A DNA stretch of 64,000 nt, taken from Planctomycetota bacterium. GTDB taxonomy: Bacteria > Planctomycetota > J058. This document shows, piece by piece, positions 8,308 through 32,024 of this stretch. A model generated the notes under the pieces. It was not told the DNA's origin. It was given only the letters and a program-made list of their open reading frames with translations, and searched no databases. The translations under genes were made by a program, and so were the position numbers. The stretch is from contig JAMLIC010000041.1 in NCBI GenBank assembly GCA_023954375.1, forward strand, positions 1 through 64,000, in the 5' to 3' direction. Position 1 is the first letter of the stretch; each line of letters opens with the position of its first letter.

Positions 8308-8400
8308 GGCGCCTCGCCCGGGCCATTAGAGCAGCTGCGCTGCGCAGAGGCGTCCTGACGTGGACGGAGGCCGCGCCTGTCGCGCCGATCCGGCCTCGGC

Positions 8401-9162
8401 TCAGCCCGTCTCGCCGAGCGCCCAGGAGGCGCGCTGGCGCACGATGACGTCGGGGTCGGACGAGGCGACCCGCTCGAGCGCCGGCCGCGCGGAGTGCAGG
8501 ACCCCGCCCTCGCGCCGCAGCGCCTCGAGCGCCATCAGGCGCTCCGGGCGCGGGGCCTGGGCGTCGGCGGCCACCCGGAGGAGCCGCCGCTCGGCCGCCG
8601 GGTGCTCCCGGTGCGCCCCGAGGCGGCCGAGCGCGCCCATGCGGAACGAGCGGAGCTCGTCGCCCGACGCGCCGCAGGGGCGGTCGAGGAGGCGCTCGAG
8701 CAGCGCGATCGCGCGGTCGGCCGGAAGGGATCGGGTCACCTCGTCCAGGGCCGCCAGCCGCCGGCCGAGGTCCGGCTCGCGCCGCACGGCCTGCTCCAGG
8801 CGGTCGAGGCGCGCCCCCTCGATCTGCAGGGCCTCGAGCTCGAAGGCGCGCTCACCCTGCGGACCGCCTCGGGTGAGCCCGGCGACGTGGACGACCGGCG
8901 AGGGCCGGCCGGGCGCGGGCCCGGAGGACTCGCGCGTCGGCGCCGCCCCCGGCGCGCCGCCGCCCGTGGCGAGGGCGACCAGGGAGGACCCCGCGCCCGG
9001 GAGCGGCGCCCGCGCGACGACCACGCGCCGCGCCGGCGCCTCGTGCTCGTGCAGGAGGACGGAGGACGACACGAGCGCGGCGGCGCCCGCGAGGCCCGCC
9101 GCCGCCGCCCCGCGGAGGACGAACCGCCGGCCGACCCGCCCGCGCCCCCCCCGCCGCGGCAT
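8401..9162 (-). CDS. Exported or anchored HEAT-like protein (last gene of the giant-protein operon)
   Basis: A 253-residue protein. The N-terminus is Arg-rich (PRRGGRGRVGRRFVLRG) followed by the hydrophobic stretch AAAAGLAGAAALVSSSVLL; this may be a membrane anchor or a Tat-like signal (GRRFVLR resembles RRxFL). Residues ~55-110 are low-complexity Pro/Gly/Ala linker, and the C-terminal ~140 residues are helical and Arg/Leu/Glu-rich with HEAT-like periodicity, ending in 'SSDPDVIVRQRASWALGE', a typical HEAT B-helix pattern. It starts at ATG 9162, which shares one base with the TGA of the lipoprotein gene (TGATG), so it is translated with the operon. It could be a scaffold in the envelope; nothing catalytic is visible. 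Confidence 0.75.
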   Translation of the reverse strand: MPRRGGRGRVGRRFVLRGAAAAGLAGAAALVSSSVLLHEHEAPARRVVVARAPLPGAGSSLVALATGGGAPGAAPTRESSGPAPGRPSPVVHVAGLTRGGPQGERAFELEALQIEGARLDRLEQAVRREPDLGRRLAALDEVTRSLPADRAIALLERLLDRPCGASGDELRSFRMGALGRLGAHREHPAAERRLLRVAADAQAPRPERLMALEALRREGGVLHSARPALERVASSDPDVIVRQRASWALGETG

Positions 9163-11810
9163 CAGTTCACGCTCCCGGGCACGAACTCGACGTTCAGCTT
9201 GAGGAGGAGGGTGCGCGCGTCGGGGCCGTCCAGCGAGTTGAAGGTCATCGTGTAGACGCCCGGGCGCAGCAGGTGGCTGGTCTCGATCGTCCCGTCGCTC
9301 GGGCGGTAGACGACCTCCAGCGACGCCGGGTCGACCTCCGCCTGGAACTGCACCCCGGTCGGCACCTCGCCCTCGTTGAACCGGGTGATGATGGCGTTCA
9401 CCCCGACCTCGAACACCGGCGTCGTGCGGAAGCGCACGCGGGCGCGCCCGGGCAGGACGAACATGACCTCCGACTTGGTCTGCGCCAGGTCGAAGGGGAT
9501 CACCTTGGCGTTCTGCACGAGCCCCGCGGCCGGCGCCAGCGCGGTCGGCTCGTCGCGCGCGTCGAACAGCTGCTCGACGCGCACCGCCTGCGTGAGCGAC
9601 GGGTCCCCCGGCTGGCGGGGGTTCACGCTGATCGTCAGGTCGAACGAGGCGCCCGCGCCGCCGATGTCGCTGTCGTCCAGCAGCGCGTTCGAGACGATCA
9701 GGTAGAAGACGAGCTGGTTGGCGTTCGCCGCCACGGGCAGGTAGAGCAGCGCCCCGCGCCCGAGCGCGCTGTCGTCGGAGCGCGCGACCGGGCGCCCGGT
9801 CGAGTCGAGGAGCTCCACGTGCGGGTCGAAGAAGCTCGTGCGCACGAGCACGAGCAGCTGGCTCTCGTTGAGGGTCAACCCCGTGCTGGGGATCTCGAAG
9901 CGGAAGACGCGCTGCTGCCCCTGCTGGATCGAGCCGGTGTTCACCGGGCGCTGCGTGACCGGCTCGAGGCGGGCGAAGTCGCTCGGGCGGAACGTCGGCA
10001 GCAGCACGCCGTTGTCGAACGTCGCGGTCGACTGGTTGTACAGCCGCGTGTAGTTGGGCGCGCGGCGCACGTTGTTCTGGTCGTTCTCCGGCGTCGCCCC
10101 CGCCGGCGGCGTGATGCGCACGAAGCTCGTGAAGCGCAGCGGCAGGCCCGCGATCCGGCCCTCGTTCGGCGTGGCGACGTCGAGCACGTAGGTGGCGCGC
10201 GTCTGCTGCAGGGCCGACGCCGGGAAGACGACCGTCTGCCGGTGGAGGATGCGCCCGCCCGTGGGCAGGGTCGCCGCGCCGGCGCGCTGGGCCGCCGTGA
10301 ACAGGGCGGCGATCGTCGCGGTGGCGGGGTCCCCGGCGCGGTCCCAGAAGAGCCCCACGACCGCCCGCGCCGCCGTGCTCGCGTCGACCGCCTGGATGAG
10401 GCCGTTGACGGTGGTCGTCGGCTCGACGACCGCCGTGACGGTGGTCCCCGCGACCGTGAGGACGATCCCGCTGCCCCCGGCGCCGCTCGGGTCGAGGACG
10501 AGCGTCCCGCCCTGGGCGACGTCCGCCGGGTTCACGAACAGGCCCGCCACGGTCCCGTCCGGATCGTGGACCCCGGTGGGCGGGCGGAACTCGTCGGTCG
10601 TGTTCAGGACCACGTCGACCGTGAGGTTCGTCGGCGCCGCGACCGCCGCGCCCAGGTTCGTCACCGTGAGGTTGCACACCGTCGTGGCGTCCGTCACGGC
10701 GGCGATCGGCGCCTCGAAGGAGACCGGCGCGAAGTCGAGGTCGGCGGGGGTGCCCGGCGCCGGCGCGTTGGGCGCCGGCATCCCGCCGAACGGCGCGCAC
10801 AGCTGCACCGGCGTGATCATGAAGGCGACGTTGTCGCCCGTGACCACGTCGCCGGCGATCTCCAGCGCGAGGACGAGGTAGTACTGGCCGGGCCGGATGA
10901 GCACCTCGCCGGACTGCTGGACGGCGATGAGCGTCTCGGGCGGCGCCTGGTTGGCGCTGGTGAAGCGCCGGGCGCGGGACACCTCGACCGCGCGGGGGAG
11001 CGCCTCCCGCCGGATGAGCAGCGACGTCGGGTCGACGCCCTTGGTCCGGGACAGGTACATGCTGACGGTCGAGCCGGCCGTCAGGGTGTCGGTCCCGTGG
11101 TTGAACACGGTCCAGCGCACGTTCTCGGCCCCGCGCCGCTCGACGCCGTTGTTCGACGCCCCGAGGCGGAGCGCGGCGGCCGTCTGCGCGGCCGGGCTGC
11201 CCGCCGTCGGAGTGGCCCCGGTCGGGTTGACCACCACCGCGGACGCCGCGCCCGGAACGCCGGAGCGGAGGACGTACTCACGGACGGCCGCATCGAACGT
11301 GCAGCTGAAGTCGGCGTAGGCGGCCGCCGGCGCCGCCCCGCTCGGGTTCAGCAGGCGCACCTTGGCCTGGATCTCGGCGGCGACGGTGGCGCCCGTGGAC
11401 GCCGCGTCGAGGGTGACCGTCTGCGCCGGGTCGCCGTTGACGGACAGGACGAGCTGGGCGCCGCCGGTCACCGAGGTGGCGGCGCCGCGGTCCGAGCGCG
11501 ACTCGCCGTAGCCGTCCGGGAAGCGGACCTCCTGCACGGGCAGCCCGGTGCGACCCTGGGCGTCCTGGGTCGGCGTGGCGCCGATGACGAGCGTCGCCAG
11601 GGTCGGCGCCTCGATCGCCGCGAGCGCCCCGTCAGGGGCGGTCGTGCGGACCTTCGACGTCTTCTCCTGGGTCGCGATGACGCCGATCGCGGCGCCGAAG
11701 TAGGCGGCGCCGCAGCCGCCGAGGCCCAGGGTCAGGACGCCGAGGAGCAGGAGCCGGAGGCGGGGCTGGGTCATCATGCAGTCCGTGGGGTTCTCCGTGG
11801 GCCGGCTCAC
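9162..11810 (-). CDS. Large lipoprotein with modules shared with the giant surface protein
   Basis: About 882 residues. The N-terminus RLRLLLLGVLTLGLGGCGAAYFG is a lipoprotein signal with lipobox LGGC. The chosen GTG start at 11810 has a GGGAGG ribosome-binding site and overlaps the giant gene's stop (GTGA); an ATG-ATG 33-36 bases further in would give a shorter signal peptide. Residues ~100-210 hold one copy of a ~85-residue module found four times in the giant protein. Repeated Ig-like or CARDB-like beta domains follow (for example VRWTVFNHGTDTLTAGSTVSMYLS and VCNLTVTNLG), then a segment like pre-peptidase C-terminal domains (VELLDSTGRPVARSDDS, FYLIVSNALLDDSD), and a C-terminal beta domain (GVYTMTFNSLDGPDARTLLL). 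No enzyme motif is seen. It probably sits in the outer membrane and works with the giant protein. Confidence 0.85.
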   Translation of the reverse strand: MSRPTENPTDCMMTQPRLRLLLLGVLTLGLGGCGAAYFGAAIGVIATQEKTSKVRTTAPDGALAAIEAPTLATLVIGATPTQDAQGRTGLPVQEVRFPDGYGESRSDRGAATSVTGGAQLVLSVNGDPAQTVTLDAASTGATVAAEIQAKVRLLNPSGAAPAAAYADFSCTFDAAVREYVLRSGVPGAASAVVVNPTGATPTAGSPAAQTAAALRLGASNNGVERRGAENVRWTVFNHGTDTLTAGSTVSMYLSRTKGVDPTSLLIRREALPRAVEVSRARRFTSANQAPPETLIAVQQSGEVLIRPGQYYLVLALEIAGDVVTGDNVAFMITPVQLCAPFGGMPAPNAPAPGTPADLDFAPVSFEAPIAAVTDATTVCNLTVTNLGAAVAAPTNLTVDVVLNTTDEFRPPTGVHDPDGTVAGLFVNPADVAQGGTLVLDPSGAGGSGIVLTVAGTTVTAVVEPTTTVNGLIQAVDASTAARAVVGLFWDRAGDPATATIAALFTAAQRAGAATLPTGGRILHRQTVVFPASALQQTRATYVLDVATPNEGRIAGLPLRFTSFVRITPPAGATPENDQNNVRRAPNYTRLYNQSTATFDNGVLLPTFRPSDFARLEPVTQRPVNTGSIQQGQQRVFRFEIPSTGLTLNESQLLVLVRTSFFDPHVELLDSTGRPVARSDDSALGRGALLYLPVAANANQLVFYLIVSNALLDDSDIGGAGASFDLTISVNPRQPGDPSLTQAVRVEQLFDARDEPTALAPAAGLVQNAKVIPFDLAQTKSEVMFVLPGRARVRFRTTPVFEVGVNAIITRFNEGEVPTGVQFQAEVDPASLEVVYRPSDGTIETSHLLRPGVYTMTFNSLDGPDARTLLLKLNVEFVPGSVN
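11225..11475 (-). repeat. Shared ~85-residue module, copy in the lipoprotein
   Basis: Pattern: a beta-strand pair (LVLSVNGDPAQTVTLD), a helix with 'TVAAEIQAKVRLL', a strand 'AYADFSCTFDAAVREYVLRSG' and a final 'ASAVVV'. The same order occurs four times in the giant protein. Borders are approximate. Confidence 0.6.
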
Positions 11811-11935
11811 GCGCGCCTCCCGCCCCGCGCCGCGACGAGGAGCGAGGCGAGCAGCAGGAGCGCCAGGCCCCCGCGGCCGGGGCCGCCGCGCCCGGCCGCG
11901 AGCGCGCAGCCGCCGGACGACTTCTTCTGGAAGGC
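11807..11935 (-). other. C-terminal Cys-TM-Arg sorting tail of the giant protein
   Basis: The last ~40 residues read SSGGC, a Gly/Arg-rich spacer, a hydrophobic segment LALLLLASLLVAA, then RGGRRA. This tripartite layout (conserved Cys, membrane helix, Arg cluster) is the design of MYXO-CTERM and related Gly/Cys sorting signals that are cut by intramembrane proteases. No such protease gene is in the window. Confidence 0.6.
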
Positions 11936-14900
11936 GCCGTCGACGAGGGCCATGTCCTGGCCGCCCGTGACGAGCAAGGCGGCCGTCGCCGGCGCGCTCG
12001 CCGTGACGATCGCGCCGCTCTGGTCGCGCACGACCGCGCGCACGGCGAAGCGGTACCAGCCCGGCGCCCGGAGCCGCAGCCGCGGCTGCGCGTCGCCCGC
12101 CGTCGTGTCGAGGAACACCGGCGAGCCGTCGAGCTGGGTCCACAGGTAGCGCACCGTCCCGCCGCCGGTCGTCGACGCGGCGGCCGAGAGCGTCGTCTCG
12201 GCCTCCTGGACCCCCGGCGCGAGGGCGATCGTCGTCGGCCCGCTCACCGTGACGACCGGCGCCTGGAAGGCCGCGTCGTCGACGCCGAACGCCACCTCGG
12301 TGACGTCGGCCACGCCGTTGGCATCCACGACCCGCAGGCGGAACGCGTAGACCCCCGGCGCCTGCGGCGATGCGGTCGCGGAGGCGCTCGTCTCGCCGGA
12401 GAGCGCGCAGGGCGGGCCCAGCACCTGCTCCCAGCGGTAGGTGACGGTCCCCGGGGCGCGGCTCACGCTCGACGAACCGTCGAGCTGGACCGACTGGCCG
12501 GCCGCCGCGCGGGCGGGGGCCGTGGCCACCGCCGCGGGCGGCCCCTGGCCATCGCTGCTCTGGGGGAGGACGGGGAGCTTCAGCGCCGCCGGTCGCGAGG
12601 CTAGGCCCGCGCTGTCCTCGACCGTGAGCTCGAGCTCGTAGAGGCCGGTGACGACCGTGACCGCGAACACGCCGCCCTTGCGGGACGTGAAGGCGAACGG
12701 GCCGCCGACCTGGCGCCACGTGTACTCGGAGATCACGCTCGTCGTCGACTGGCTCTGCGTCCCGTCGAGCATGACCGTGTCGCCGCTGCGCGCGAACCCG
12801 ATCACCGCGGCCGAGGTGCCGTCCGGCAGCCGGAGGCGGGCGACGTCGCGGCCGGCGGGCGGTCGGACGTAGCCCTTCGCCACGACGGCCCCGCCCGCGA
12901 TGACCTCGAAGCTCACCAGCCCCGTGCTCGACGGCGCGGGGTCGGCGGGGGCGAGGTAGGCCTCGAGGGCCTTCTCCTGGCCGTCGTCGAGCACGACCGT
13001 CGTCGGGGCGCTGGCCGGCGCCTGCGCGAGGAACACGGCGCGCCGGTGCCCGACCAGGCGCGGCCGCGCGACGGGGGCCGCGCGGGGCGACGGGACGAGG
13101 TCGTCGACCACCATGACGGACACGTCACGGGGCGCGCTCTCGACGCCGCCCGCGCCGCGGACGACGAGCCGCAGGCGGTAGAGCCCTGGCACCGGCGGCG
13201 TGAACTGGACGGTCGCCCCGGACACGGACAGCGGCACCGGCGTGGGCGACGCCACGGTCGACCACTGGAACGTGAGCGACCCGGGCGGCTGGCTGAGCGA
13301 GGCGTCGATGACCACCGGCTGGCGCGCGCGCCCGGTGAGGTCGGGGCCCGGGTCGGCGTAGGGCACGCCGACCCCGTTCGACACGAGGCGCGTGGTCGAC
13401 GGCGACGCCGTGGTGGGGATCGCCGGCGCCGTGGCCACGTAGAGCCTGATCGTGAACACCCCCTGCTCGGGCGGCGAGAACATGGGCGACGCCAGGGAGG
13501 CGTCGTCGAACGCGGTCACCACGGTCGTCCCGTCGGCGCGCGCCGCCGTCCACAGGTAGTTCAGCGTCCCCCCGTTGGGGTCGAGCGACTGGGTCCCGTC
13601 GAGCCGCACCGGGCCGTTGACCACGAGGGGGTTGGGGCCGGCGATGATCGCGATCGGCGGCTCGTCGGTGATGCGCACGCGGAAGTCGCGCACGACCTGC
13701 CCCTGCCCGTCGGTGAAGGCGTTGGGCAGCGGGTCCCCGGCGTCGTCGACGACCGTGACGATGAGGCGCAGGTTGTAGTCGCCCGGCGCCGTGACCCCGA
13801 GGATCCGCGCGAGCGGCGAGGTGTGGTCGGCGGTGGTCTGCCCCGGCGGGTTGCCGTCGCCGTTGTCGATGGTCAGCGTACCCGGGTCGGTGGTGCCGGT
13901 CTGCTCCCACCGGTAGCGCACCCGGCCGCCCGTGGTCAGGAGGGGGGGGAGGCTCTGGCTCGCGTCGAGGAGCACGTCGCCAGGCGCCGCGCGCAGCACC
14001 CCGTCGACCGTCCCGTCGTCATCGAGCACGACGGCGAAGCGCGCCGAGAGGTCCGACACGTTCGTCGACTCGGGCAGCGCGCGCGGCGCCGCGGCGCGGT
14101 CCTGCACGAAGCCGCCGTCGCCGGCGTCGATCCAGGCGAAGCGGGGCATGGCCGTCCCGGCTCCGGGCACGTTCGTCAGGCGGACGTCGATCCGGCCCCC
14201 GGAGACCACGACGTCGGAGTGGGTGCGGCCGGCGAGCAGGTTGAGGACCCCGTCCTGCGAGAGCACGATCAGGTCGTCCAGCGGCCGCGCCTGGCCGCTC
14301 GAGAGCGCGCTGCCCTGGTGCGAGGTCGCGTTGTCCAGGCCCAGGTTGGCCGACGCGTCCTGCGGCGTCCCGGTCGCGAGGACCTCGACGCGCGACGACG
14401 GGTCGGCGTTGCCGGCGATGAGGACGAGCTGCTGGCGCGGGGCGTCCCAGAGCGCGGTGAACCCGCTGTAGGCCGGCTGCAGCGACGGCGACTGGCTCAC
14501 GATCTGGCGCACGACCGTCTGCAGGCGCTCGGCGATCGCGCGGCCGCGGTCGTCGATGCTCGGCGTCGTGCCCGGCGTGACCGTGATCGAGAGGCTGAAC
14601 AGGCGCGGCGTGTCGCCCGACAGCTGGAGGCGGAGCTGGTCGGACGTGCCGGCGACCACCTCCATGGGCGGCCCGACCGTGGAGACGGCGAAGCCCGCCT
14701 GGGCGTCGCCAAAGCCCTGCCGCTCGAAGCCTGCCGCGCCGAGCCCGAGGTGCGCCGCCCCGTTGTTCCCGCCCTGCGGCGTGACGACCACCCGGGAGGA
14801 CGCCCAGTCCAGCACGAGGCGCGCGCCGTCGTGCTGCAGGCCGACGCCGGAGCGCAGCAGGAAGCGGCCCGTCCGCGCGTCATAGGTCGCGGTGAAGTTG

Positions 14901-23900: not shown

Positions 23901-26900
23901 CGGACGAGGAGGCGCGCGTCCTGGGCGATCGCCGAGGTGGTCGTGAGGTCGATCGGGTGCGTGGCGTCCGTGTTGCCGGCGGTCGCGGGCGACGGGACGA
24001 CGAGCACGTTCGCCACCTGCCCGGGCTGGACGATGAACCGCGGCGGGAAGGTCCCGGGCACGGCCGGGGCCGCGTCGATCGGCACGTTCAGGGCGTCGCG
24101 GGTCTCGACCGTCACCTGGTGCTGGCGGTGGCGGTTGGTCGAGTTGGTGAACCCGGTCAGGGCGACGAAGTACGTGCCGGGCGGCAGGCTCGAGCCCAGG
24201 TTGTCGCGCTGGCAGGAGAGCACGCCCGCGGCGAAGGAGAAGTTGGTCAGGTTGAGCCCGGGGCTGCTCGCGCCCGCATCGAACCCGGGCGCGCCGTTCG
24301 CCCACGCGTCGGCGCCGGCGTCGTACGTGAACACGAGGCGCGCGTCGGCGGGGAGGCGCGTGCTGGTGGTGAAGGTCACCGTGTGCTGCGCGCCCGCGGC
24401 GCCCGACCCGGCCGGGTTCAGGACGACGGTCGTCACCGTCGCCTGGTCGCCCACGAGGTTGAACGGCGGCGAGGAGTCGTTCGGGCCCTCGATGATGCTC
24501 CCCGGCGTCTGGTCGGCGCCGCCATAGCTGTGGGTCGACATCGCCAGGGCGTAGCTGCCCTTCGTGTCCACGTTCACCGCGCCGGCGGCGGCCGCGATCG
24601 TGATGCGGTGGAGGATCGGCGTGATGCCGTCGCCCAGGACGCCGACCCCGTCCTTGCGCGAGATGACGAGGGTGCTGTCCGAGCCGTCCGCCGGGTCGAG
24701 TCGCATGACCGCCCCCGAGAGCGGCACGAAGCCTGCGCCGAGGTCGACCTCCCACAGGCCGACCGCGCCGCCGAGGACCTGGCTGTCGAGCGCGCTCAGG
24801 TCGAACGTGACGCTGTTGTCGAGCGGGCTGCGCGGGAAGACGACCCGCACCTGGCCGTCCGACGGGATCTGCGTGAGGCTGCGGAACTGGAGCGTGTAGC
24901 CCGAGGGCTGCGCCGCTCGCGTCTCCGTGGGCGACGCGGTGACGTTCGTCAACTGCGCGCCCGAGAGCGAGAAGTTGGGCGTGTTCGTCTCGGCGAGCAC
25001 GCGGTCGCCCGCGGCGAGCACGGCCGGCGGGCCGCCGCTGCTCTGGCGGTACATCGACACCGTCGCGAAGAAGTCCGTGCCCTCGTCGTTCGAGTTCACG
25101 ACCTGCCGCAGGGTCAGCGAGTGGTTGCCGGCGGGCAGGTCGGCGGCGCCGATGTATCGGATCCACAGGATCGAGCCGTCGACCGCGTTGCCCGGGTCGA
25201 GCAGGACCTGCAGGTCGGCGTTCGGGACGGTGGCCGCGTTCACGGTCCAGGTCAGGTTCGTGGCCGGGTCCGCCGCGACGTTGGCGAAGCTGAAGGGGCT
25301 GGTCTGGGCGTTGCCCTTCTGCAACTGGACGCGGATGACGTGCGCGGGCGAGCCGCGGACGATGACCGGCGTGCTGAAGGTGATCGTGTGCGTCGAGGCC
25401 GCGCCCTTGGCCGGGGGCGAGACGGCGTCGGCCAGGCTCTGCGGGCTCGACTCGACGATCGTCGCCGGGCCCGAGCGGTTCTCGTCGGCCCCGGTGAGCT
25501 GGGGCGGGTCGATGCGCCACAGCGTCTCGAGGACGTCGACCTCGCCCCCGGTCAGGGCGTTGACGTCGACGACGATGTCGAAGGCGCCGGGGACGGTGCA
25601 GGGGATCGTGACGCCCGCCTGGGTGTCCGCGACCCCCACGACCTGGCCGATCTGCGCGCTCGCGTCGCGCCCCTGGTCGCGGTACGCGGTGATCGTCCGG
25701 TTCCCGGCCGTGCCCGTGACCTCGAGGTAGATCGCGCCGGTCAGGTCGGTCCCGTCGAACACCTGGCCCGCGGCGATCGAGGTGCTGACGAGCGTGAGCC
25801 GCCCGCTGGCGCCGAAGGTCCGCAGCCGGGGGCGGAGGGAGGTCGCCGGGTTGCGGAACGCCTCGATGCGGTAGCGCGTGTCGCCCTTGAGCGAGGTGTT
25901 CGTCACGACGTCCACGAGCTGGATGGCGTGGCGCACGGGGCTCGTGTCGCCGTTGGCGCCCAGGAGCGGGTCGCGCTCGAGGACGAGCCCCGTGCGGCTG
26001 ACGCCCGCCGAGGTCGAGCGCTGGATCGCGCGGATGCGGTAGCCGCCGTCGATGCCGGCCCAGGTGATCGCCTCGCCGGCGCCGCCGGTGAAGGTCGAGG
26101 CGGCGGTCAGGCTGTTGGCCAGCTTGACCTCGGCGTCCTCGAAGAAGAGCGTCACGAGGCCGTTGGCCGGCAGGGTCGAGCCCATCTGGAACGTGAACGT
26201 GTGGGTCGAGCTCTGCTGGTCGGCGGCGGCCGGGGCGACCGCGTAGGTGACGCTGCTCGCGGCGAAGCCGGCGCCGTCGACGTCGACCTGCGGGAGCGTG
26301 CCGCTCGGCCACGCGTCGACCGTCACGCCGTTGCCCGTGTTGAGGGTGCGGACGGCGGCGACCTGGTGGGTCGCGACGACCGTCGTGTTGCGCACGTTCG
26401 AGAGCGCCAGGCGCAGGAAGGGCGTCGTCGCGGCGTCGATCGTCGCCGTCGCGACGAGGCGCACGGTCAGGTTGTCGGGGAGGAGCGAGACCGTGTAGTT
26501 CGTCGTGGGCGTGTACGGCCCCCCGCCCGCCGCGGCCGTGGAGAGGACGACGTGCGTCCCGGGCGTGGTGCTCACGTTCGAGACGTTGAACCCGAGCGGG
26601 AACGTGACCTCGATGGCGTTGCCCGTGACCACGTCGGCGTTGAGGCGGAAGTCGAACGTGTAGGTCGTCGCGCTGGACCCGGCGGTGACGACCGGCCGGG
26701 GCGCGCCAGGGGGCGGCAAGGGGCTGGACAGGGCCACGTTCGTCAGGTCACCGCCGGTGAGCGTCACGCCCGCGCCCGCCTGGGCGTCGAGCGCCGCGTA
26801 GCCGCTCGCCTGGTCGTCGAGCGTGTGCACCCGGAGGCCGCTGGCCGGGTCGAACGTCTGCGCCTGGCTGGCGTTGCGCACACCCGTGACGGTGAGGTCC

Positions 26901-29900
26901 CACGCGCCGTGCGCCACGTCGGTCGCGCCGCCGTGGGTGATCGTCAGCACGTTGCCCGCGCCGCTGACGGTGGGCGTGAAGCCGCCCGCGGGCGCGGTGT
27001 TGACGGTCAGCCCCGCGGACGACACGTCGGTGTTGCCCGGGAACGTGACGATGATCCGCCCGCCGGTCGTCCCGCCGAGGCCCGGGAGGCGCGACTGCGT
27101 GTTGAACGTGACCCGGTAGCTCGCCCCGGCCGCGCCCGCGAGAGGGTTCGACAGGTTCACCAGCGTCACGCCGGTCACGGCGCCGCCGGTCGTCCGCACC
27201 ATGTTCGCGGCCGAAGCCGTCTGCGCCGACTGGTCGATCGTCGTCGCGCCGGCGGTGCGCGTCTCCACCTGCACCGGGAGGTCGCGGTTACCCCGGCGAG
27301 GGTTGGCGATCGCGTTGGTGAAGGTGAGCGTCATCGTGCCCGGCGTGAGGATGTTGCCAGTGCCGGCGGTGCGAGTGATCGTGATGATCGGGTCCGCCGT
27401 CCCCGGCGCCGACTTCGCGATCGAGAAGTTGCCGATGACCTGGGCGCCGTTGCTCGACGCCCAGCTCGTGTTACCGCCGCTCGCCGCCGAGATCGCCGAC
27501 AGGTCGATCGTGCCGGTCGGGTCGAAGAGCTGGAGGCGCACGACCCCGTCGTCCGGGATGTCCGACTTGGTCACGAACTGCACGACGTAGGTCGTCGAGG
27601 CCCCTGTCCCCGTGGCGCCCTGGGTGAGCGACGGGACGAGGATCGGGTCGGTCGAGGCGACCGTGTGACCCTGGATCGTGATCGCCTGCGCCGGGGTCGG
27701 TCCGTCACCCGCCGTCGTCGAGATCGTCGCCACGTAGTCGCCCGGGAGCGGCGGGTTGGCGCTGATCGCGCCCGTGAGCGTGATCCTGTGGAACCCGGCC
27801 TCGACCGGCGTCGTGCCAGTGTTCCGGATGATCAGGTCCTGCCCGTTGACCTCGAAGTCCGCCGTCACCAGGGCGCCCTGAGCGGCCTGGCGGATGGCGG
27901 CCTGCGCCGCGTCCGGGTCGAGGTACACGGGCGGCGTCGTGACGCTCGAGCGCGGGTCCGTTCGCCACGTGCCCGTCAGGCCGGCGTGGAGCACGAACCC
28001 CGACGGCATCGAGACCACGATCGCCCCGTTGGGCGGGACCTGCGAGTGCGTCGACAGCTCGAACGTGGTCGTCGCGACGGCCTCGTACGTGCGCGTCGCG
28101 GAGAGGGTCGCCCGGGGGGCGTTGCTCGTCCCGGGCCCCTGGAGCGCCTGGCCGGCGATCGTGAGCGGCGCCGTGGTCGGGCCCTCGATCGTCGCCGGGG
28201 TCGTGTTCAGGAGCTGCACGGTGACGCCGGCGGACCCGGGGAGGGTGGACGTGGTCGTGGCGGACGTGGGGAAGTTCCCGGCGAAGCGGATGCGGCGCTG
28301 CGTGGCCCCGCCGGCGAGCGCTGCACCCGTGTTCTGGAAACGGAACACCATCCGGCCTGACGCGTCGAGCCGCAGCGAGTGCGGCTTGACGTTCGCGAGG
28401 TTGTCGAACGTGACCGGGACCGGCGTCGCCGTGATGTCCTCGTTCGCCGCCCCCCGCAAGTTGCGGGCGATCACCACGCTCCCGTTGACCCCGCTCGCAC
28501 CATTGGCGACGAGGTTGACGTACCCCAGGCCGCTCGTGGTGCCGACGGTGCCGCTGGCGAGGAGGGTTCCACCGTTGCGCACCTCGATCGCATCGGCCGC
28601 CACAGACCCGCCCCGGACATAACGGAGCGTCACCTGCCCGTCGGCGTTGGTGTTCGTCCCCGCCCCGCCCACGCCGTAGGTGGCCCCGAAGACGATCCCG
28701 CTCAGGCTCAGGCTCCGGAGGGTCGTGTTCGTCGCGGCCGAGTAGGTCCAGATGCTGTCCTCGATGGCCGTCGTCACGTCGATGAAGAAGTTCGTGTTGA
28801 TCGACTGCGTGTGCGTGAACTCCACGTCGTACTGGATCGGGGTGTGGGTGGGGACGGTGCCGACACGGTCGGTCCCGTTCAGGCTGGCCGGATCGCCCGT
28901 GACCACCAGGTTGCCCGTGTCCACGACGTTGAACGTGGGCGAGGCGGCGTAGCACTTGAGGTTGTTGCTGTTGTTGGTCCTGGTGATGTTGTGAAAGATG
29001 AAGATGCGCGCCCCGCGGATCTCGTAGTCCGGGAGCGTGACCGTGAGGGCGAGCGGAGACGCCATCGTACGGTTGTTGCCGTTTGCGGTGTAGACCACGG
29101 CGTTGGGCGTCGAACTGCCGAAGAGCGCGACCGGGGCCGGCGCCGACCCAGCTGGAGTGTTGTAGTTGTTGACGCCCGGCGCCGAGGTGATCGTAAAGCC
29201 ACCACCGAGATGTCCGAAGTCGGGCCCGAACGGAGGAAAGGCGATGACGAACTTGTCACCGCCGTCGAGGGTGAAGCCTTGCGTCCCCGTGAGGCTGAAG
29301 GTGACCGACGCCCCCTTGGGGAGGTTCGGGTACGTTCCGCCGGCGGTGACGGTGAGGCCGATCTCGTTCGAGCTCACCTCGGCCTTGAAGTCGAGCGAGG
29401 TGGTGTTGTTGACGAACGTCGGCCCCTGCGGCAGGTTCATGTGCGGCCGATTCGTGCCCGTCGAGTCGAGGACGTTCGTCCCCACCTGCGACCCCGTGAA
29501 CGGCGCGTCCCGGGTCTGCAGGTCGATCGTGTAGTTGCTCGCGGCGGCGGCGGGGTTCCGCATGTTGCTGATCGACACGACCATCGTGCGCCCGCCTGGG
29601 GTGGCGGTGCCGGTGCCGTCCCGGACCAGGTAGATCTTCTTCGCGGAGTCATCGACCGTCGTGGTGAAGCCGCCGTCGATCCCGCTCCACCCGGTCACGC
29701 TCGCCGTCCCGAGGCCGAACGTGTTGGCGCGGTTGTCGAAGGTCAGCTCGAGCGTCCCGTCGGCGGGGAGACCCGTCGTCGTGCGGAACGTGAAGGTGTA
29801 GGTGGGGATGGGGGTGCTCGCCGAGGCGCCAGTCGTCTGATACGTGCGGCGGAACACGGGCGATGAGTCGATCGAGAGGAGCACCCGGGCGTTCGCGTTC

Positions 29901-31102
29901 TGCGTCGCACCCGCGGGCACGGGCGGCGCCCGGAGGCCCTGTGCGCCGAAGGGATTGATGGTGAGCGGAACCTGCCGCGGGAGGTCGCGGGTGGTCGCGA
30001 CCGTGAGCGACTGCCCCTGCACGAAGGTCGTCGCCCGGTTTTGCAGGTCAGGCGGCGGAGGCGGCGGTGCGAAGCTGACCACGAAGTTCCCAATGTTCCC
30101 CGGCGGGAGGAAGGCGCCCGTGCGGGTCCACGTGACCGTTCGCGCGGTCGGGTCGATGACCCCGCTCGAAAAGCCCACTGGTTGCGTGGTCGACGACCCA
30201 GTGCCCGCGTTGAGCGTCCAGTCTCCGGGGAAGGTCACGACGACCGTATCGCCAGTGGCGATCCCCGAGGTCACAGTCACAGCGTTGATGTTGAAGGTGT
30301 TCGTGATCTGTCCCGCCGTCCGGGCGGCCGGGTCGGGGGTGAAGCTGACGAGCTCCTGCTGCTGCCAAGTGATGCGCTTGTCGGCGAAGCTGCTGATGGC
30401 TCCATCCGTCAGCCGCACCGCGATCGGGCCTTCCGCGCAGTTGTTGGCGACGATCAGCGTCGCCTCTCCGCCCAGGAACGTAACCCCGGCCGGGTTGGGA
30501 GAGCCGAGCCCAGGGGTGGTCAGATCGTTCTGGCGAAAGCTCACGCCCGGAGTCCCGACGTACGTCGTGATCAGGTTCCCGAACCGGTCCTCCGCGCGGC
30601 AGGTGATCGTCGTCGCCGCGCCCACGTTGGGCGTGGTCGACCCCGTGACGAGCATGGAGAAGTGGTCCAGCGGCCCCGCCGTGAACGTCAAGGCCACCAC
30701 CTCGGTCGGGGCGAACGTGTCGCCGGTCGAGGCGAGCGTGATGTTCGTCGCACCCGTCTGGGTGGACGAGACGACCAGGAAGCCGGTCTGGCCGTCCAAG
30801 AGCGGGGTGGTGACCCCGTTCGTGAAGCTGAGCCCAGTCGTCGACGCCGAACCGCTCGGGGTGATGAACGTCCAGGTCAGCGGGAAGTTCGACGAGGTCG
30901 CCGTGAACGCCCCCGCTGGCATGCCGTCACCCGTGCCAGCGCTGTCGGAGAGGGTAATGACGATCGGATCGCCGACCGCGGCGCTGCCGACGGTCGGCGT
31001 GACGGTGATGATGTCTTGCCCCGACGCTGCCTGCGCGCCTCCTAGGGCACACAACACGAGAGCGGTCGCCCGGAGAGACGCGGTGCTCCTCGCGCGGCCC
31101 AT
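11807..31102 (-). CDS. Giant (~6431-residue) secreted multi-repeat surface protein
   Basis: The gene is 19.3 kb and in frame throughout. ATG 31102 has a GGAGG ribosome-binding site six bases away, and the next 28 residues form a Sec signal peptide (ASLRATALVLCALGGAQA). In order: about a dozen ~150-residue adhesion-type repeats (LPADGTLELTF...NPAAAASNYTIDLQTRDA pattern) to about residue 2490; many Ig/filamin-like domains with 'DAAGN', 'DRYGN' or 'DVSGN' motifs to about residue 5180; a section with shared modules and a DTDGDGNVD calcium-type loop; five or more PKD domains (DGTQSLDP, DGSSSVS); and a tail of SSGGC, a hydrophobic LALLLLASLLVAA stretch and RGGRR. The tail resembles MYXO-CTERM-like sorting signals. 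Expected mass is around 650 kDa. It is probably an adhesin, stalk or matrix protein of the cell surface. The 5' ~2.5 kb is visibly less GC-rich than the rest. Confidence 0.92.
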   Translation of the reverse strand: MGRARSTASLRATALVLCALGGAQAASGQDIITVTPTVGSAAVGDPIVITLSDSAGTGDGMPAGAFTATSSNFPLTWTFITPSGSASTTGLSFTNGVTTPLLDGQTGFLVVSSTQTGATNITLASTGDTFAPTEVVALTFTAGPLDHFSMLVTGSTTPNVGAATTITCRAEDRFGNLITTYVGTPGVSFRQNDLTTPGLGSPNPAGVTFLGGEATLIVANNCAEGPIAVRLTDGAISSFADKRITWQQQELVSFTPDPAARTAGQITNTFNINAVTVTSGIATGDTVVVTFPGDWTLNAGTGSSTTQPVGFSSGVIDPTARTVTWTRTGAFLPPGNIGNFVVSFAPPPPPPDLQNRATTFVQGQSLTVATTRDLPRQVPLTINPFGAQGLRAPPVPAGATQNANARVLLSIDSSPVFRRTYQTTGASASTPIPTYTFTFRTTTGLPADGTLELTFDNRANTFGLGTASVTGWSGIDGGFTTTVDDSAKKIYLVRDGTGTATPGGRTMVVSISNMRNPAAAASNYTIDLQTRDAPFTGSQVGTNVLDSTGTNRPHMNLPQGPTFVNNTTSLDFKAEVSSNEIGLTVTAGGTYPNLPKGASVTFSLTGTQGFTLDGGDKFVIAFPPFGPDFGHLGGGFTITSAPGVNNYNTPAGSAPAPVALFGSSTPNAVVYTANGNNRTMASPLALTVTLPDYEIRGARIFIFHNITRTNNSNNLKCYAASPTFNVVDTGNLVVTGDPASLNGTDRVGTVPTHTPIQYDVEFTHTQSINTNFFIDVTTAIEDSIWTYSAATNTTLRSLSLSGIVFGATYGVGGAGTNTNADGQVTLRYVRGGSVAADAIEVRNGGTLLASGTVGTTSGLGYVNLVANGASGVNGSVVIARNLRGAANEDITATPVPVTFDNLANVKPHSLRLDASGRMVFRFQNTGAALAGGATQRRIRFAGNFPTSATTTSTLPGSAGVTVQLLNTTPATIEGPTTAPLTIAGQALQGPGTSNAPRATLSATRTYEAVATTTFELSTHSQVPPNGAIVVSMPSGFVLHAGLTGTWRTDPRSSVTTPPVYLDPDAAQAAIRQAAQGALVTADFEVNGQDLIIRNTGTTPVEAGFHRITLTGAISANPPLPGDYVATISTTAGDGPTPAQAITIQGHTVASTDPILVPSLTQGATGTGASTTYVVQFVTKSDIPDDGVVRLQLFDPTGTIDLSAISAASGGNTSWASSNGAQVIGNFSIAKSAPGTADPIITITRTAGTGNILTPGTMTLTFTNAIANPRRGNRDLPVQVETRTAGATTIDQSAQTASAANMVRTTGGAVTGVTLVNLSNPLAGAAGASYRVTFNTQSRLPGLGGTTGGRIIVTFPGNTDVSSAGLTVNTAPAGGFTPTVSGAGNVLTITHGGATDVAHGAWDLTVTGVRNASQAQTFDPASGLRVHTLDDQASGYAALDAQAGAGVTLTGGDLTNVALSSPLPPPGAPRPVVTAGSSATTYTFDFRLNADVVTGNAIEVTFPLGFNVSNVSTTPGTHVVLSTAAAGGGPYTPTTNYTVSLLPDNLTVRLVATATIDAATTPFLRLALSNVRNTTVVATHQVAAVRTLNTGNGVTVDAWPSGTLPQVDVDGAGFAASSVTYAVAPAAADQQSSTHTFTFQMGSTLPANGLVTLFFEDAEVKLANSLTAASTFTGGAGEAITWAGIDGGYRIRAIQRSTSAGVSRTGLVLERDPLLGANGDTSPVRHAIQLVDVVTNTSLKGDTRYRIEAFRNPATSLRPRLRTFGASGRLTLVSTSIAAGQVFDGTDLTGAIYLEVTGTAGNRTITAYRDQGRDASAQIGQVVGVADTQAGVTIPCTVPGAFDIVVDVNALTGGEVDVLETLWRIDPPQLTGADENRSGPATIVESSPQSLADAVSPPAKGAASTHTITFSTPVIVRGSPAHVIRVQLQKGNAQTSPFSFANVAADPATNLTWTVNAATVPNADLQVLLDPGNAVDGSILWIRYIGAADLPAGNHSLTLRQVVNSNDEGTDFFATVSMYRQSSGGPPAVLAAGDRVLAETNTPNFSLSGAQLTNVTASPTETRAAQPSGYTLQFRSLTQIPSDGQVRVVFPRSPLDNSVTFDLSALDSQVLGGAVGLWEVDLGAGFVPLSGAVMRLDPADGSDSTLVISRKDGVGVLGDGITPILHRITIAAAAGAVNVDTKGSYALAMSTHSYGGADQTPGSIIEGPNDSSPPFNLVGDQATVTTVVLNPAGSGAAGAQHTVTFTTSTRLPADARLVFTYDAGADAWANGAPGFDAGASSPGLNLTNFSFAAGVLSCQRDNLGSSLPPGTYFVALTGFTNSTNRHRQHQVTVETRDALNVPIDAAPAVPGTFPPRFIVQPGQVANVLVVPSPATAGNTDATHPIDLTTTSAIAQDARLLVRYSDPGFDLSAVGDFSLTGVGNPALITLEQGTSDGRAVIALNLPADLAPATRTLTLRHVRNTANAASNHTVKVVVLAPGAAVAVNNEPFGAQGNGDTITLASVNGQPPVVVPGSVTVSTGVAFVIDEVAGTITFPNGSAAGTVSYQRYPEVVAAGIGSPVPVDLGGTSAQFAITGGPATQVRFENVTVGSVRNRLAWPNTFRIQLLDAAGNETTNTGGQPIDVSFTSAQTGAGATLQWDGGVPQIPTSAISATGQVVLDLMSFRGRLTGVEAAPGFNTANITLTATIGGTPLTLAGAAGSNVVKVIPGNFTQVAWPASVGQQTVDAPFTGSLLLQAVDADGNRPPTPGTTPNLRVLPRTGPTTGAADEVARGSIINLGGGGDQIDGAQLDTGAGTFNLVGTAARFVGPAGDAFFHVHRASDDGHVTTVDTTNFQPTPPLQVTFAAGQAARVEWTLASAFGRRVSGSAPATSIPAGSYSFTVALNGDNPAPTASMVVGAITSDGPAIAAALQTAIRQMTASSAPLQKAYSQARVAFSGNRYVVVSGVDATAGASTVGSFVDVSGPTTLMDALKLVDGQGSAATAGDPAAIYRIDGLFPTGAAVELLDAGGNPTTNIGSPARFLRIRVASTFNPGFDRPRLSYEAPAATPVPDVMVEATPDVDYVDLLPPGATTNLGNVLRYGGGHNNGRPMRLSVRVASQDGANSPRAVQSATGTPLVITKTAAGADWTPGDLVGKTILFTGDGPAVGRRAVIAANTATTITITEPLAPAVRVLTGTVNVVNGSSTVTGAGTSFQSDLLQGHWIEFSSEPGVFYVVQTVTSNTELTLTFAYNGTNDGAATVTRGGAPGAGNTFEVLTLAELPLVSSQVDGVDNTVVFTPAKVSRVTLQGFTTFRVAQPSTGSAQAQDRYGNPTNDVGAGAVFGLATSPTPVGAPFSATNLLTGLPDGGGTSATSARFTNGVATISPEYRGAALADGSQTITIGVTVDGAPVTVQGATYNVDAGDPLHVEWVGLNGRILHAGRPLNDSAAPTGLGPAGVGPWQLRLFDAAGNAVEASDVPAVTGGIRVDVVSDVDFPKLDALADPSQSDAVAFGAGGTNLLQSAAFTGNTANIANMRFNGRSSQNNGQSLRAVLVSTGGVETNLIPVTLAPPANPVANPAFTVRPGALAHFHWALSNTLVQQPSQPLDPLGTYEVHAHDAFHNRLGAAGETYEARPNTPIAGSGFDLTTHAGTTPELVYVMPINPSDPGCRLNFGATDPGAGAPLLGRVRLDKGGAGAFAWSNGTFRLGPSPQADLRYFGINGDVQLQVDVSRVTPGRTIGALAGTVAVTNGSNVVDGAATQFTTQVVVGERIEFASQPGTLYEVASISGDLQLVLTSNYTGTTNLNTTGTTLRPILGSVTNAANPGGATTTDNIRIGAGAVDHFWFQDATALVRWDVGQTNDTAWNANSAGSQLVARDVAGNTINTYTTEGEDVRLITYAHHMQGTATAYDGTTFVLTYTGMPTAAVTPDNVILVNRRTGAVAKVVGINGQAITLEAPGFRFGANADNTLVLNTDVLDVLVRLDPLTWRFSVGDNVANTNRNGGVNNDQPHILRTQFTAAGGTFSINSTLGGAANGWRWTGQIPAGGTIIFRPVINTGLGQFEHRGVRVGSGGPGLPARGGVEVPIGPGTVTAFQWSVAGVQQNGAPFAGTNTLTAVDVSGNVNTTFNGTTNLTVSVAAASRVPTVGTLLVEGPASSTTFTTNDPAVTAAVVGRTVHLFDNGGTFKTDAVIVAYDSVTRVVTTTDIAPLAYVAGGTPDRFAIDPFPPGNAPTLTPTQITGAGWTNGVANLSAGGLGLTYRGVANGLQVTVTATSGSVTATSGPITLNPGAGTKVALLYRGLGLGVPDELLVEGTPNGAGGNPSIVQAIVNPAIAPNQALAGTVVVLDANNNRLTSVAGSTASVLSTDPFGTQGPQGQAWDGTGRVQFSVQGRTVTGLTAPPATRATPASWSLQVSNTGGFATPAGVATRTFRVVTDGVKRVEYIFDHADAATGTFGVGDTGTATTLQVGAGTPFSADMVGMVLVNTTNGGAYGRITAATTTQLTFNALQGADPTRAQLWLAGDSWRVVPMYRIDGMTSSTPGSPGVEGSTNTRVLTVGTAVNGRVLLLDSGNNVTAGPGGDNVTVNTTDPFDVHPSGTFVNGVFSFALTARQAAHNTGQPPLPRDENDLNVILNHTVSIAPTGASFGGGGVTQQGASNYQAVPGAAAGVVLVVAPPSQRIRRGDATTPLSGTPPLQTAGAGFLVRAYVVDQHNNPVDYTGQISFSLPGGGTAGPFAVTEGDTGNVSFLTLNRSGHFLQITPQNPVPNLTTPTLRPTDRFDVKPGAPAHGIVYVSVATGGGGVETLNAGQSAVGDPPGSLTLSGGTLRATAGEDNVTITVAVTDALSNPVLLHEMQPAGDRRARITTSDPNNSVFEYDFTGSTAFFQPTHTYGGFPAAGTPMATATLARTITLTRAQLQHVLDIEPASLTDDLPGAITAHRSRPIRIDPAAVAKAVIVLPGQTLNTGAKTGQPVFQGSPQDQVEGVEFPVRVFAVDAFHNIQYGDSTSTLDTLVTDEGTNYVGGLGFRLSAEGAATLVNSGQLEFTDLNGLVIAQLPFANASTGADVASRIRQAVREQTIATSEATIRFDAFFLPEFSRYLLVSGAATKPAQPTSRVAMGAATTAGLQLVGAGSNGRDGAVSPAPVGGVDFASGVLAFTVRHAVAADIHFLDASLTINGGTVTARSENYRVLEPDFAIASVTMLDDGAGKIDRARLVFTLGADPNSIAGAAGQFELTQTRGGQTVTLRGSSASLLSTVVSNDTIDVLFNGKLPTTSVDGLTLTYTRPLSGGLRGDPNTGGRPLDTVTRTNVNGQGEIRDGAVPALVNVTREDTDGDGNVDLMRFVFSEDVGLGAGAGFHKGAFGAGDVTTAAVNDGFLISIDGEAPQAIALGDVQTGTSIAAAIQAGVRGLTAANPLKQRAYDNFTATYDARTGRFLLRSGVGLQHDGARLVLDWASSRVVVTPQGGNNGAAHLGLGAAGFERQGFGDAQAGFAVSTVGPPMEVVAGTSDQLRLQLSGDTPRLFSLSITVTPGTTPSIDDRGRAIAERLQTVVRQIVSQSPSLQPAYSGFTALWDAPRQQLVLIAGNADPSSRVEVLATGTPQDASANLGLDNATSHQGSALSSGQARPLDDLIVLSQDGVLNLLAGRTHSDVVVSGGRIDVRLTNVPGAGTAMPRFAWIDAGDGGFVQDRAAAPRALPESTNVSDLSARFAVVLDDDGTVDGVLRAAPGDVLLDASQSLPPLLTTGGRVRYRWEQTGTTDPGTLTIDNGDGNPPGQTTADHTSPLARILGVTAPGDYNLRLIVTVVDDAGDPLPNAFTDGQGQVVRDFRVRITDEPPIAIIAGPNPLVVNGPVRLDGTQSLDPNGGTLNYLWTAARADGTTVVTAFDDASLASPMFSPPEQGVFTIRLYVATAPAIPTTASPSTTRLVSNGVGVPYADPGPDLTGRARQPVVIDASLSQPPGSLTFQWSTVASPTPVPLSVSGATVQFTPPVPGLYRLRLVVRGAGGVESAPRDVSVMVVDDLVPSPRAAPVARPRLVGHRRAVFLAQAPASAPTTVVLDDGQEKALEAYLAPADPAPSSTGLVSFEVIAGGAVVAKGYVRPPAGRDVARLRLPDGTSAAVIGFARSGDTVMLDGTQSQSTTSVISEYTWRQVGGPFAFTSRKGGVFAVTVVTGLYELELTVEDSAGLASRPAALKLPVLPQSSDGQGPPAAVATAPARAAAGQSVQLDGSSSVSRAPGTVTYRWEQVLGPPCALSGETSASATASPQAPGVYAFRLRVVDANGVADVTEVAFGVDDAAFQAPVVTVSGPTTIALAPGVQEAETTLSAAASTTGGGTVRYLWTQLDGSPVFLDTTAGDAQPRLRLRAPGWYRFAVRAVVRDQSGAIVTASAPATAALLVTGGQDMALVDGAFQKKSSGGCALAAGRGGPGRGGLALLLLASLLVAARGGRRA
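11955..14015 (-). repeat. PKD-type domain array (five or more) in the giant protein
   Basis: Successive ~85-95-residue beta domains with the PKD motifs 'V.LDGTQSLDP', 'Y.W' and a terminal 'G.Y.LRLVV.D': for example VRLDGTQSLDPNGGTLNYLW, VIDASLSQPPGSLTFQW, VMLDGTQSQS, VQLDGSSSVSRAPGTVTYRW and TTLSAAASTTGGGTVRYLW. PKD domains are extracellular and often bind surfaces or polysaccharide. Borders are approximate. Confidence 0.8.
14370..14650 (-). repeat. Shared ~85-residue module, giant protein copy 4
   Basis: LRLQLSGDTPRLFSLSITV, then IAERLQTVVRQIV, then LQPAYSGFTALWD and QLVLIAGNADPSSRVEVL. Same strand-helix-strand order as the other copies; it follows copy 3 after a short linker. Borders approximate. 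Confidence 0.6.
14800..15055 (-). repeat. Shared ~85-residue module, giant protein copy 3
   Basis: FLISIDGEAPQAIALGDV, then SIAAAIQAGVRGL, then KQRAYDNFTATYDARTGRF and LLRSGVGLQHDGARLVL. This is the clearest copy. Borders approximate. Confidence 0.62.
15815..16065 (-). repeat. Shared ~85-residue module, giant protein copy 2
   Basis: LEFTDLNGLVIAQLPFANA, then DVASRIRQAVREQ, then IRFDAFFLPEFSRYLLVSGA and SRVAMG. It keeps the IRQAVR helix and the Y-LLVSG strand. Borders approximate. Confidence 0.58.
19725..19955 (-). repeat. 'GTVxVTNGSxxVxGxxTxF' module, copy A
   Basis: LAGTVAVTNGSNVVDGAAT, QFTTQVVVGERIEFASQPG, TLYEVASISGDLQLVLTSNYTG: a ~65-residue beta module. A second copy lies at 21385-21595. 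Similar modules are known from phage and secreted proteins. Confidence 0.6.
21385..21595 (-). repeat. 'GTVxVTNGSxxVxGxxTxF' module, copy B
   Basis: TGTVNVVNGSSTVTGAGT, SFQSDLLQGHWIEFSSEPG, VFYVVQTVTSNTELTLTFAYNG: closely parallels copy A in length and order, pointing to duplication within the gene or a mobile coding module. Confidence 0.6.
22215..22490 (-). repeat. Shared ~85-residue module, giant protein copy 1
   Basis: FTVALNGDNPAPTASMVVG, then AIAAALQTAIRQM, then LQKAYSQARVAFSGNRYVVV and SGVDATAGASTVGSFV. It is about 6 kb of coding sequence away from copies 2-4. Borders approximate. Confidence 0.6.
23640..30365 (-). repeat. Tandem ~150-residue adhesion-type repeats in the giant protein
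   Basis: About twelve diverged repeats share an opening 'A..TY.F.F.T...LP..G', a strand such as VRLQLFDPTGTIDLSAI or LELTFDNRANTFGLGTASV, a 'V.R..GTG....G' segment and a closing 'T.SN.RNP..A..YTI.L.TRDA' segment. Examples start near residues IPTYTFTFRTTTGLPADG, STTYVVQFVTKSDIPDDG, ASYRVTFNTQSRLPG, STHTFTFQMGSTLPANG and AQHTVTFTTSTRLPADA. The design is that of bacterial and archaeal surface-layer or adhesin repeats. The exact repeat number is uncertain. Confidence 0.7.
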
Positions 31103-31944
31103 CACGACCTCCGCTCCTGGCCGGCCGCCTTGACCTCGAAGGAGGCCGACTCGCAATGCATCGGGAGCCCACGCAAGCCGACCCGGGCGTCAAGCGCGGG
31201 AGACGTGGCCACTACGTCGAGAGTGACCTCGCCCACCAAAGTCAGATCCACGACCGAGCCGTCGACGCCGATGCGCACGACGCGAGGGCAGCCGAACTGC
31301 GCCGGCGCTCCATCGCGCAGGGGAACGATGCGCACGGCGAACGGTACGCCCGGCTCCTGAACCTCCGGCGTCCCGACGGCCAGGCCGCCCTCGAGGCGCT
31401 GGCCAGGCAAGAGCAACACGACCCCGTCCGGCGGCGCGAGCCACGCGAGCTCCACCTCGGCGACCACGGCGTCGTCGTAGGAGATCGAGAGGCGTCCCTC
31501 GACGGGTCGGGTGGCCGTCAGCGGGAGGGCCAGGGTCCCGTTGGCGTCGAACGAGGCACCCGCCAGCAGTTCGCGGGCGTCACCGCCCGGGCGCGCGACG
31601 CCGCCCATCTCGAGCGTCTCGACCACCGGGCCACGAAGGAGCAGCCCCTCGGGGAGCGTCGCCGAGCTCACGGGAGCGCCCGAAGCCAGGTCACGTGCCT
31701 CGAGTAGGAGGACCAGCGGCAAGCCGGCGTCCGTGCGAGTTGGCAGCGCGCGCGCCGAGAGCGCGAAGGGCAAGGTCGGCCGCGGGAGGCGCGGCGTTTC
31801 GGCCACGGCTCCTGGCGGCTCTTCAGCCCCCCCCGGCTCCCGACCGAAGAAGGACCAGACGCCGAGGCCGCCGAGGAGGCCGACGGCCACGAAGATGGTC
31901 AGTACAGACCGAGCGGGCTGGCCGCTGCGGGCGTCGTCGCTCAC
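31102..31944 (-). CDS. Single-pass membrane protein, first gene of the giant-protein operon
   Basis: A 280-residue protein of unknown family. It has a short polar N-terminus (SDDARSGQPARS), one membrane helix (VLTIFVAVGLLGGLGVWSFF, residues ~14-33), a Pro-rich linker, and then a ~220-residue beta-rich domain with repeated short strands (for example GRLSISYDDAVVAEVEL and VVDLTLVGEVTLDVVATS), presumably in the periplasm. Two Cys residues near the C-terminus (QFGCPRVV, MHCESAS) could form a disulfide. GTG 31944 is chosen because a GGGGGGAG ribosome-binding site precedes it by 3-4 bases; the frame upstream is intergenic in composition. The TGA shares one base with the ATG of the giant gene (TGATG). 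It may anchor or guide export or assembly of the giant protein; no motif proves this. Confidence 0.8.
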   Translation of the reverse strand: MSDDARSGQPARSVLTIFVAVGLLGGLGVWSFFGREPGGAEEPPGAVAETPRLPRPTLPFALSARALPTRTDAGLPLVLLLEARDLASGAPVSSATLPEGLLLRGPVVETLEMGGVARPGGDARELLAGASFDANGTLALPLTATRPVEGRLSISYDDAVVAEVELAWLAPPDGVVLLLPGQRLEGGLAVGTPEVQEPGVPFAVRIVPLRDGAPAQFGCPRVVRIGVDGSVVDLTLVGEVTLDVVATSPALDARVGLRGLPMHCESASFEVKAAGQERRS

Positions 31945-31995
31945 GATCTCCCCCCCCCTTCGACGGAACTCGAAGCCCCGCCTCGGGCCGCGGAC

Positions 31996-32024
31996 GTGAT
32001 AGCACCGGGCCCGGACCAAATCAA
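31996..32024 (-). promoter_or_regulatory. Sigma-70-type promoter for the giant-protein operon
   Basis: On the minus strand, TTGATT (32024-32019) is followed after exactly 17 bases by TATCAC (32001-31996). Transcription would begin about position 31989, giving a ~45-base leader before the GTG at 31944. It lies in an AT-richer stretch than its surroundings. Confidence 0.6.

Follow-up and report, generated by a model that had tools for sequence, protein, structure and literature searches.

Introduction

The closest described counterparts of the locus reported here are the MrtX-sorted MYXO-CTERM proteins of Myxococcus xanthus, such as TraA, which combine a signal peptide with a C-terminal Cys motif, a helix and an Arg-rich tail, and whose tag has been described as specific to myxobacteria (PMC11980579). 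In TraA, a constant anchor displays a part for recognition that varies; the open reading frames of traA and traB overlap, and the partner of TraA is an OmpA-type barrel protein (PMC11980579). In MXAN_5598, a large adhesin bearing an internal MYXO-CTERM tag is fused to an outer-membrane barrel (PMC11980579). Very large surface proteins are also found in the Gram-positive Apilactobacillus kunkeei, in which Giant1-5 are presented as extracellular proteins of 3000-8000 aa encoded by clustered, consecutive genes (PMC12863079).

The locus lies in a window of 64,000 nt, the whole stretch of DNA analysed here (positions 1 to 64,000, forward strand, of contig JAMLIC010000041.1, assembly GCA_023954375.1), from a Planctomycetota bacterium of lineage J058; the source is an uncultured Planctomycetota class. 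It encodes a giant protein of 6431 aa, termed P2, together with three smaller proteins, P1, P3 and P4. Like the MYXO-CTERM proteins, P2 starts with a signal peptide and ends in a Cys motif followed by a helix and an Arg-rich tail; like TraA, it carries a variable part on a constant one within overlapping reading frames; and, as for MrtX-sorted proteins, a candidate CPBP protease and a type II secretin are encoded in the genome. In contrast to TraA/TraB, the host belongs to Planctomycetota rather than Myxococcota, the partner is a lipoprotein instead of a barrel protein, an extra gene encodes a helical solenoid and the giant, at 6431 aa, is a fibre built of beta repeats, while tag and protease, unlike those of the MYXO-CTERM/MrtX system, fall short of the curated cut-offs or only just reach them. 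P2 resembles Giant1-5 in being a very large, predicted extracellular surface protein encoded in a cluster, although here a single giant is accompanied by small partners. P2 is a variant of the known sortase-type surface giants, and its function may be adhesion, recognition, or contact with prey or kin.

The genomes compared, which appear to be metagenome assemblies, include the window's own genome (G000), a congener (G001), two members of the same family (G004 and G005), a member of the same order (G007), two genomes of a sister family (G010 and G011) and two of family f26 (G056 and G032).

Organization of the four-gene block

The four genes and the segments defined within and around them are as follows.

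P1: 31102..31944, minus strand, 280 aa, N-terminal membrane helix and extracytoplasmic domain.
P2: 11807..31102, minus strand, 6431 aa, Sec signal peptide, beta repeats, PKD domains and C-terminal sorting tag.
P2 variable part, residues 1-5175: 15578..31102, minus strand, delimited by BLAST against the other giants of the family.
P2 conserved stalk, residues 5176-6410: 11873..15577, minus strand, flagellin/P3-like modules followed by PKD domains.
P2 sorting tag, residues 6393-6431: 11810..11926, minus strand, KKSSGGC, hydrophobic helix and Arg-rich tail, with the Cys at residue 6399.
P3: 9162..11810, minus strand, beta-rich lipoprotein sharing a module with P2, with tentative CARDB/PPC-like domains.
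P4: 8401..9162, minus strand, 253 aa, N-terminal membrane helix, disordered linker and all-helical HEAT-like solenoid.
Replaced block: 8335..32470, no strand assigned, containing exactly P1-P4, delimited by blastn of the window against the congener.

All four genes are open, overlapping frames, as the initial annotation had claimed. The P1/P2 and P3/P4 junctions have the sequence TGATG, with an overlap of 1 nt each, while the P2/P3 junction reads GTGA and overlaps by 4 nt; purine-rich, Shine-Dalgarno-like GGAGG/GGGAGG motifs lie within the 3' end of each preceding gene. Since the spacing seen most often between genes of a bacterial operon is an overlap of 1 or 4 nt, the junctions are by themselves unremarkable. 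A scan upstream of P1 revealed nothing promoter-like; a TTGATT-N17-TATCAC arrangement was noticed by eye only and set aside. The P2 frame displays a strong and clean coding bias in all stretches sampled, with a GC content of 0.65/0.56/0.975 at the three codon positions, and is therefore not a chance frame. The predicted N-terminal signals were also confirmed, comprising membrane helices in P1 and P4, a signal peptide in P2 and the lipobox LGGC in P3.

P1 contains a single N-terminal membrane helix and is without a family match in Pfam or NCBIfam.

Architecture of the giant, the lipoprotein and the solenoid

The N-terminal part of P2 comprises a series of divergent beta repeats of ~140 aa, followed in the middle by modules that appear Ig/filamin-like on reading of the sequence, none of which is matched by Pfam. 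Modules resembling P3 occupy residues ~5330-5600, and the final ~600 residues form tandem PKD domains (Pfam K319L-like_PKD, 3.7e-36). Neither RTX repeats (Pfam) nor an autotransporter C-terminal beta-barrel or TPS domain (Pfam and NCBIfam) were found. Major differences between the giants lie in the long N-terminal part: the giants of G001, G004 and G005 contain no BLAST match to residues 1-5175, and residues 250-2500 lack one in all 57 relatives. The stalk, in contrast to this variable part, shares 33-36% identity between the window and the other giants of the family, which are 40-43% identical among themselves, and it can be aligned to the giant of the same-order relative. The constant part consists of the last ~1250 residues of the giant and P3, plus P4 within this family.

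The module shared by P2 and P3, which had been proposed from the sequence, was recovered between P3 residues 97-219 and the giant (E=4e-8). P3 may start at ATG 11777, giving 871 aa with a compact lipoprotein signal, or at GTG 11810, giving 882 aa with a better ribosome-binding site. Its structure model (871 aa) is all-beta, with a poor pLDDT of 59. A PPC-like match (Foldseek, 5sv5, TMt 0.75 over 127 columns) was obtained on this low-confidence model, and a CARDB match below threshold was observed in one P3 homologue; whole-length Foldseek matches (TM <0.4 on the weak model) were treated as meaningless, and a sequence search of the PDB returned nothing. The named matches to a P3 profile are mostly Planctomycetota metagenome assemblies (HKST-UBA89, ACE_PLA31, J058, NORP233 and OFTM393), with one further match labelled merely uncultured bacterium. 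Among 392 genomes of the phylum, the P3 family is nearly confined to one class; a P3-like frame in G255 was discarded as a contig-edge fragment with no giant in view.

The AlphaFold model of P4 displays an all-helical solenoid with pLDDT >90 over most of residues 110-250, in which eight helices (residues 101-250) are arranged in tandem antiparallel pairs as in HEAT repeats. The HEAT-like character suggested initially is supported by this model, although the Pfam HEAT_2 match falls below cut-off. The best Foldseek matches are helical-repeat, alphaRep and HEAT proteins with weak E values, and a sequence search of the PDB gave weak matches only, the best being an artificial alphaRep (E=0.1). The solenoid would be located in the periplasm, tethered to the inner membrane. 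In the congener, the membrane helix and the solenoid of P4 (L032, about 9261-9937) lie in different frames, reflecting either an assembly frameshift or a broken gene.

The sorting tag and its candidate machinery

P2 ends in KKSSGGC, a helix and RGGRRA, and its GGC is invariant across an alignment of six tails. The layout is that of MYXO-CTERM proteins, from the N-terminal signal peptide to the Arg-rich tail. The P2 tail itself matches neither TIGR03901 nor any other CTERM model, while the tail of the giant from G004 scores 20.2 against TIGR03901 (cut-off 20). Three other proteins of the window's own genome exceed that cut-off (C34, 27.4; C59, 23.6; C22, 20.4), and the model matches in 0/14 control genomes. 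Further proteins encoded in this genome share the tail; among them are two M10 metalloproteases of the matrixin type, which carry TIG or carboxypeptidase-regulatory domains and have the same Cys tag at their end (C59, L144; C34, L143). Matches to TIGR03901 are also abundant in two single Planctomycetota genomes of family f26, with 27 in G056 and 20 in G032 (E <= 0.01), many of them above cut-off.

A candidate myxosortase-like CPBP protease is encoded in the same genome (G000:C63:28538-28852, within a 253-aa frame) and has counterparts in most relatives searched. It scores 80 for MrtP (cut-off 250) and 77.9 bits for Mrt_core (cut-off 100); the CPBP protein of G010 reaches 99.0 for Mrt_core, and no CPBP protein in the genomes searched attains the curated myxosortase cut-off. 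The type II secretin GspD is found above cut-off in the window's genome. Because the window tail and the CPBP proteins miss the curated cut-offs, P2 is not filed as a proven MYXO-CTERM member, and its sequence suggests that it works like one. An Lgt-like prolipoprotein diacylglyceryl transferase of 424 aa, whose Pfam match is split in two stretches, is encoded at 40607-41881 on the plus strand; an enzyme of this type is predicted to provide the lipid-donor step for Cys sorting tags.

Replacement of the block and gene order in relatives

Comparison of the window with the congener by blastn revealed identities of 89.4% up to position 8334 and 90.6% from 32471 (~89-91% over the flanks), and the proteins encoded in the flanks (ABC, TPR, hydrolase and radical-SAM) share 84-96% identity; the slot itself lies between the ABC and TPR genes. 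Between these points, only short patches of 66-77% identity in reverse orientation and one 37-base match were detected. The slot of the congener holds giant, P4 and P3 in the opposite direction, with the order of P3 and P4 exchanged relative to the window. P3 is 42% identical between the two and the giant stalk/C-terminus 36%, while the N-terminus cannot be aligned; the congener's P3 is nearer to that of another genus (G004, 52%) than to that of the window (42%). In the P3 tree the window falls outside the other family members, with a support of 89/95 that is not decisive. P3 runs toward the TPR gene in G003 and G006 as in the congener, so the window probably shows the derived arrangement. The difference is most simply explained if a cassette of a more distant lineage replaced the original one. 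A phase-variable inversion was rejected, the ends of the block sharing only short inverted matches of 12-14 bases.

In G001, G004 and G005 the order is giant, P4 homologue (in a ~700-bp gap) and P3, and P1 is absent; in G003, whose contig begins inside P4, P4 is followed by P3. P1 was not detected in G001, G003, G004 and G005 at the threshold used; elsewhere it was found only in G007, where it adjoins a P3 homologue without a giant, and P1 would be an optional accessory gene. A separate contig of G007 holds a giant of 4960 residues, next to which lies an unrelated gene. The initial annotation had read the four genes as what looks like a self-contained display system, with an anchor role for P1, and had named a related giant apart from its partners as a finding that would refute this. 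The block does behave as one unit: the difference from the sister species coincides precisely with it, and giant, P4 and P3 occur together in three other genomes of the family. A conserved four-gene order is contradicted by these same genomes, where P4 lies between giant and P3; a giant without a neighbouring partner gene does occur in G007; and P1 is displaced as anchor by the giant's own C-terminal tag and by its absence from the family relatives searched.

In both sister-family genomes, a single open frame covers the C-terminal region of the giant together with the P3 homologue; it measures 3151 aa in G010 and 1557 aa in G011, and in each it is truncated upstream, where the contig or stretch ends. 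At the fusion junctions an internal tag, SGGC...helix...RR or GGGC...helix...RRRRR, is followed by the lipoprotein signal LVMSSGC or SLNAAGC. The arrangement is similar to that of MXAN_5598, in which a sorting tag in mid-frame likewise precedes another envelope protein; it differs in that a lipoprotein bearing a signal of its own makes up the downstream part, and in that the sister family has two-gene versions. The strongest indication of joint action by giant and P3 comes from this fusion.

Other single frames in which a GGC-helix-Arg tag is followed by an in-frame signal peptide were observed in G010 (C1 ~142799, L050) and G007 (C77 ~193562, L047). Polyproteins joined by such tags may be recurring in this Planctomycetota class.

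Proposed mechanism and alternatives

We propose, with a probability of roughly 55%, that the block is an exchangeable surface-display cassette, comprising an anchored giant, P3 as its partner and P4 as a helper, which is swapped at a fixed slot. Sec would export the giant, and the C-terminal helix would retain it in the inner membrane; lipidation and cleavage at the sorting tag would follow, and then export by the type II system. Its last ~1250 residues would form a constant stalk working with P3, probably at the outer membrane and through direct contact, while the first ~5000 residues would form a long variable fibre touching the outside world, possibly in adhesion or recognition. P4, confined to this family, would help in assembly or hand-over, and recombination in the flanking genes would swap the whole unit between strains, leading to altered surface specificity. 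An extended version of this model is doubtful at present: the slot would be a polymorphic surface-identity locus at which whole cassettes are exchanged, even reversed, the giant-lipoprotein polyprotein of the sister family would be cut by a sorting protease and by lipoprotein signal peptidase, and the system would be a non-myxobacterial counterpart of TraA/TraB.

Several alternatives concern the export and fate of the giant. Directly downstream in the window, on the strand of the giant, are two ABC exporter genes (6445-8307 and the next one), as would suit a type I-secreted adhesin; this is highly improbable given the Sec signal peptide, the C-terminal helix with its Arg tail and the lack of RTX repeats in Pfam, and in the congener the same ABC gene is part of the conserved flank and is directed away from the giant. 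That another sorting enzyme (rhombosortase or exosortase) processes the giant, or that the C-terminal helix simply keeps it in the inner membrane, is unlikely. The failure of every myxosortase model to reach cut-off and of CTERM models to score the window tail would fit this reading, but the Cys is invariant in all six tails and TIGR03901 exceeds its cut-off in an orthologue; moreover, GlyGly-CTERM remains below cut-off for one tail from the same genome, and PEP-CTERM models are absent from the NCBIfam matches of all seven tails.

It is rather improbable that the window and the congener differ through fast divergence and a local inversion instead of foreign replacement, even though the two cassettes are of one family and occupy the same slot. 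Inversion alone cannot yield the exchanged P3/P4 order or the presence of P1, the inverted repeats at the ends never exceed 14 bases, and the window's P3 is less similar to that of the congener than the congener's is to that of another genus, despite flanks with 90% DNA identity. A comparably low likelihood is assigned to a structural role of the giant in the envelope, in which it would build an S-layer or wall-like sheath and would not be an adhesin or recognition fibre. Planctomycetota have unusual envelopes, and giants with PKD/Ig-like repeats could build envelopes too; however, one would expect conservation of a coat protein, whereas P2 is single-copy with an N-terminal region unmatched in relatives, and the swap pattern is a better fit to recognition.

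Implications

The display-cassette model would extend Cys-type C-terminal sorting from myxobacteria (PMC11980579) to giant fibres of an uncultured Planctomycetota class, and it names a specific protease as candidate. Two facts are the most interesting and go beyond what was initially claimed for the locus, namely the inverted swap at the slot and the polyprotein of giant and lipoprotein: the fusion suggests which protein physically partners a fibre of >6000 residues, and the allelic swap at a fixed slot offers a testable case of surface-specificity exchange. The presence of a different, flipped unit at the same spot in the sister species suggests an exchangeable “surface identity” cassette.
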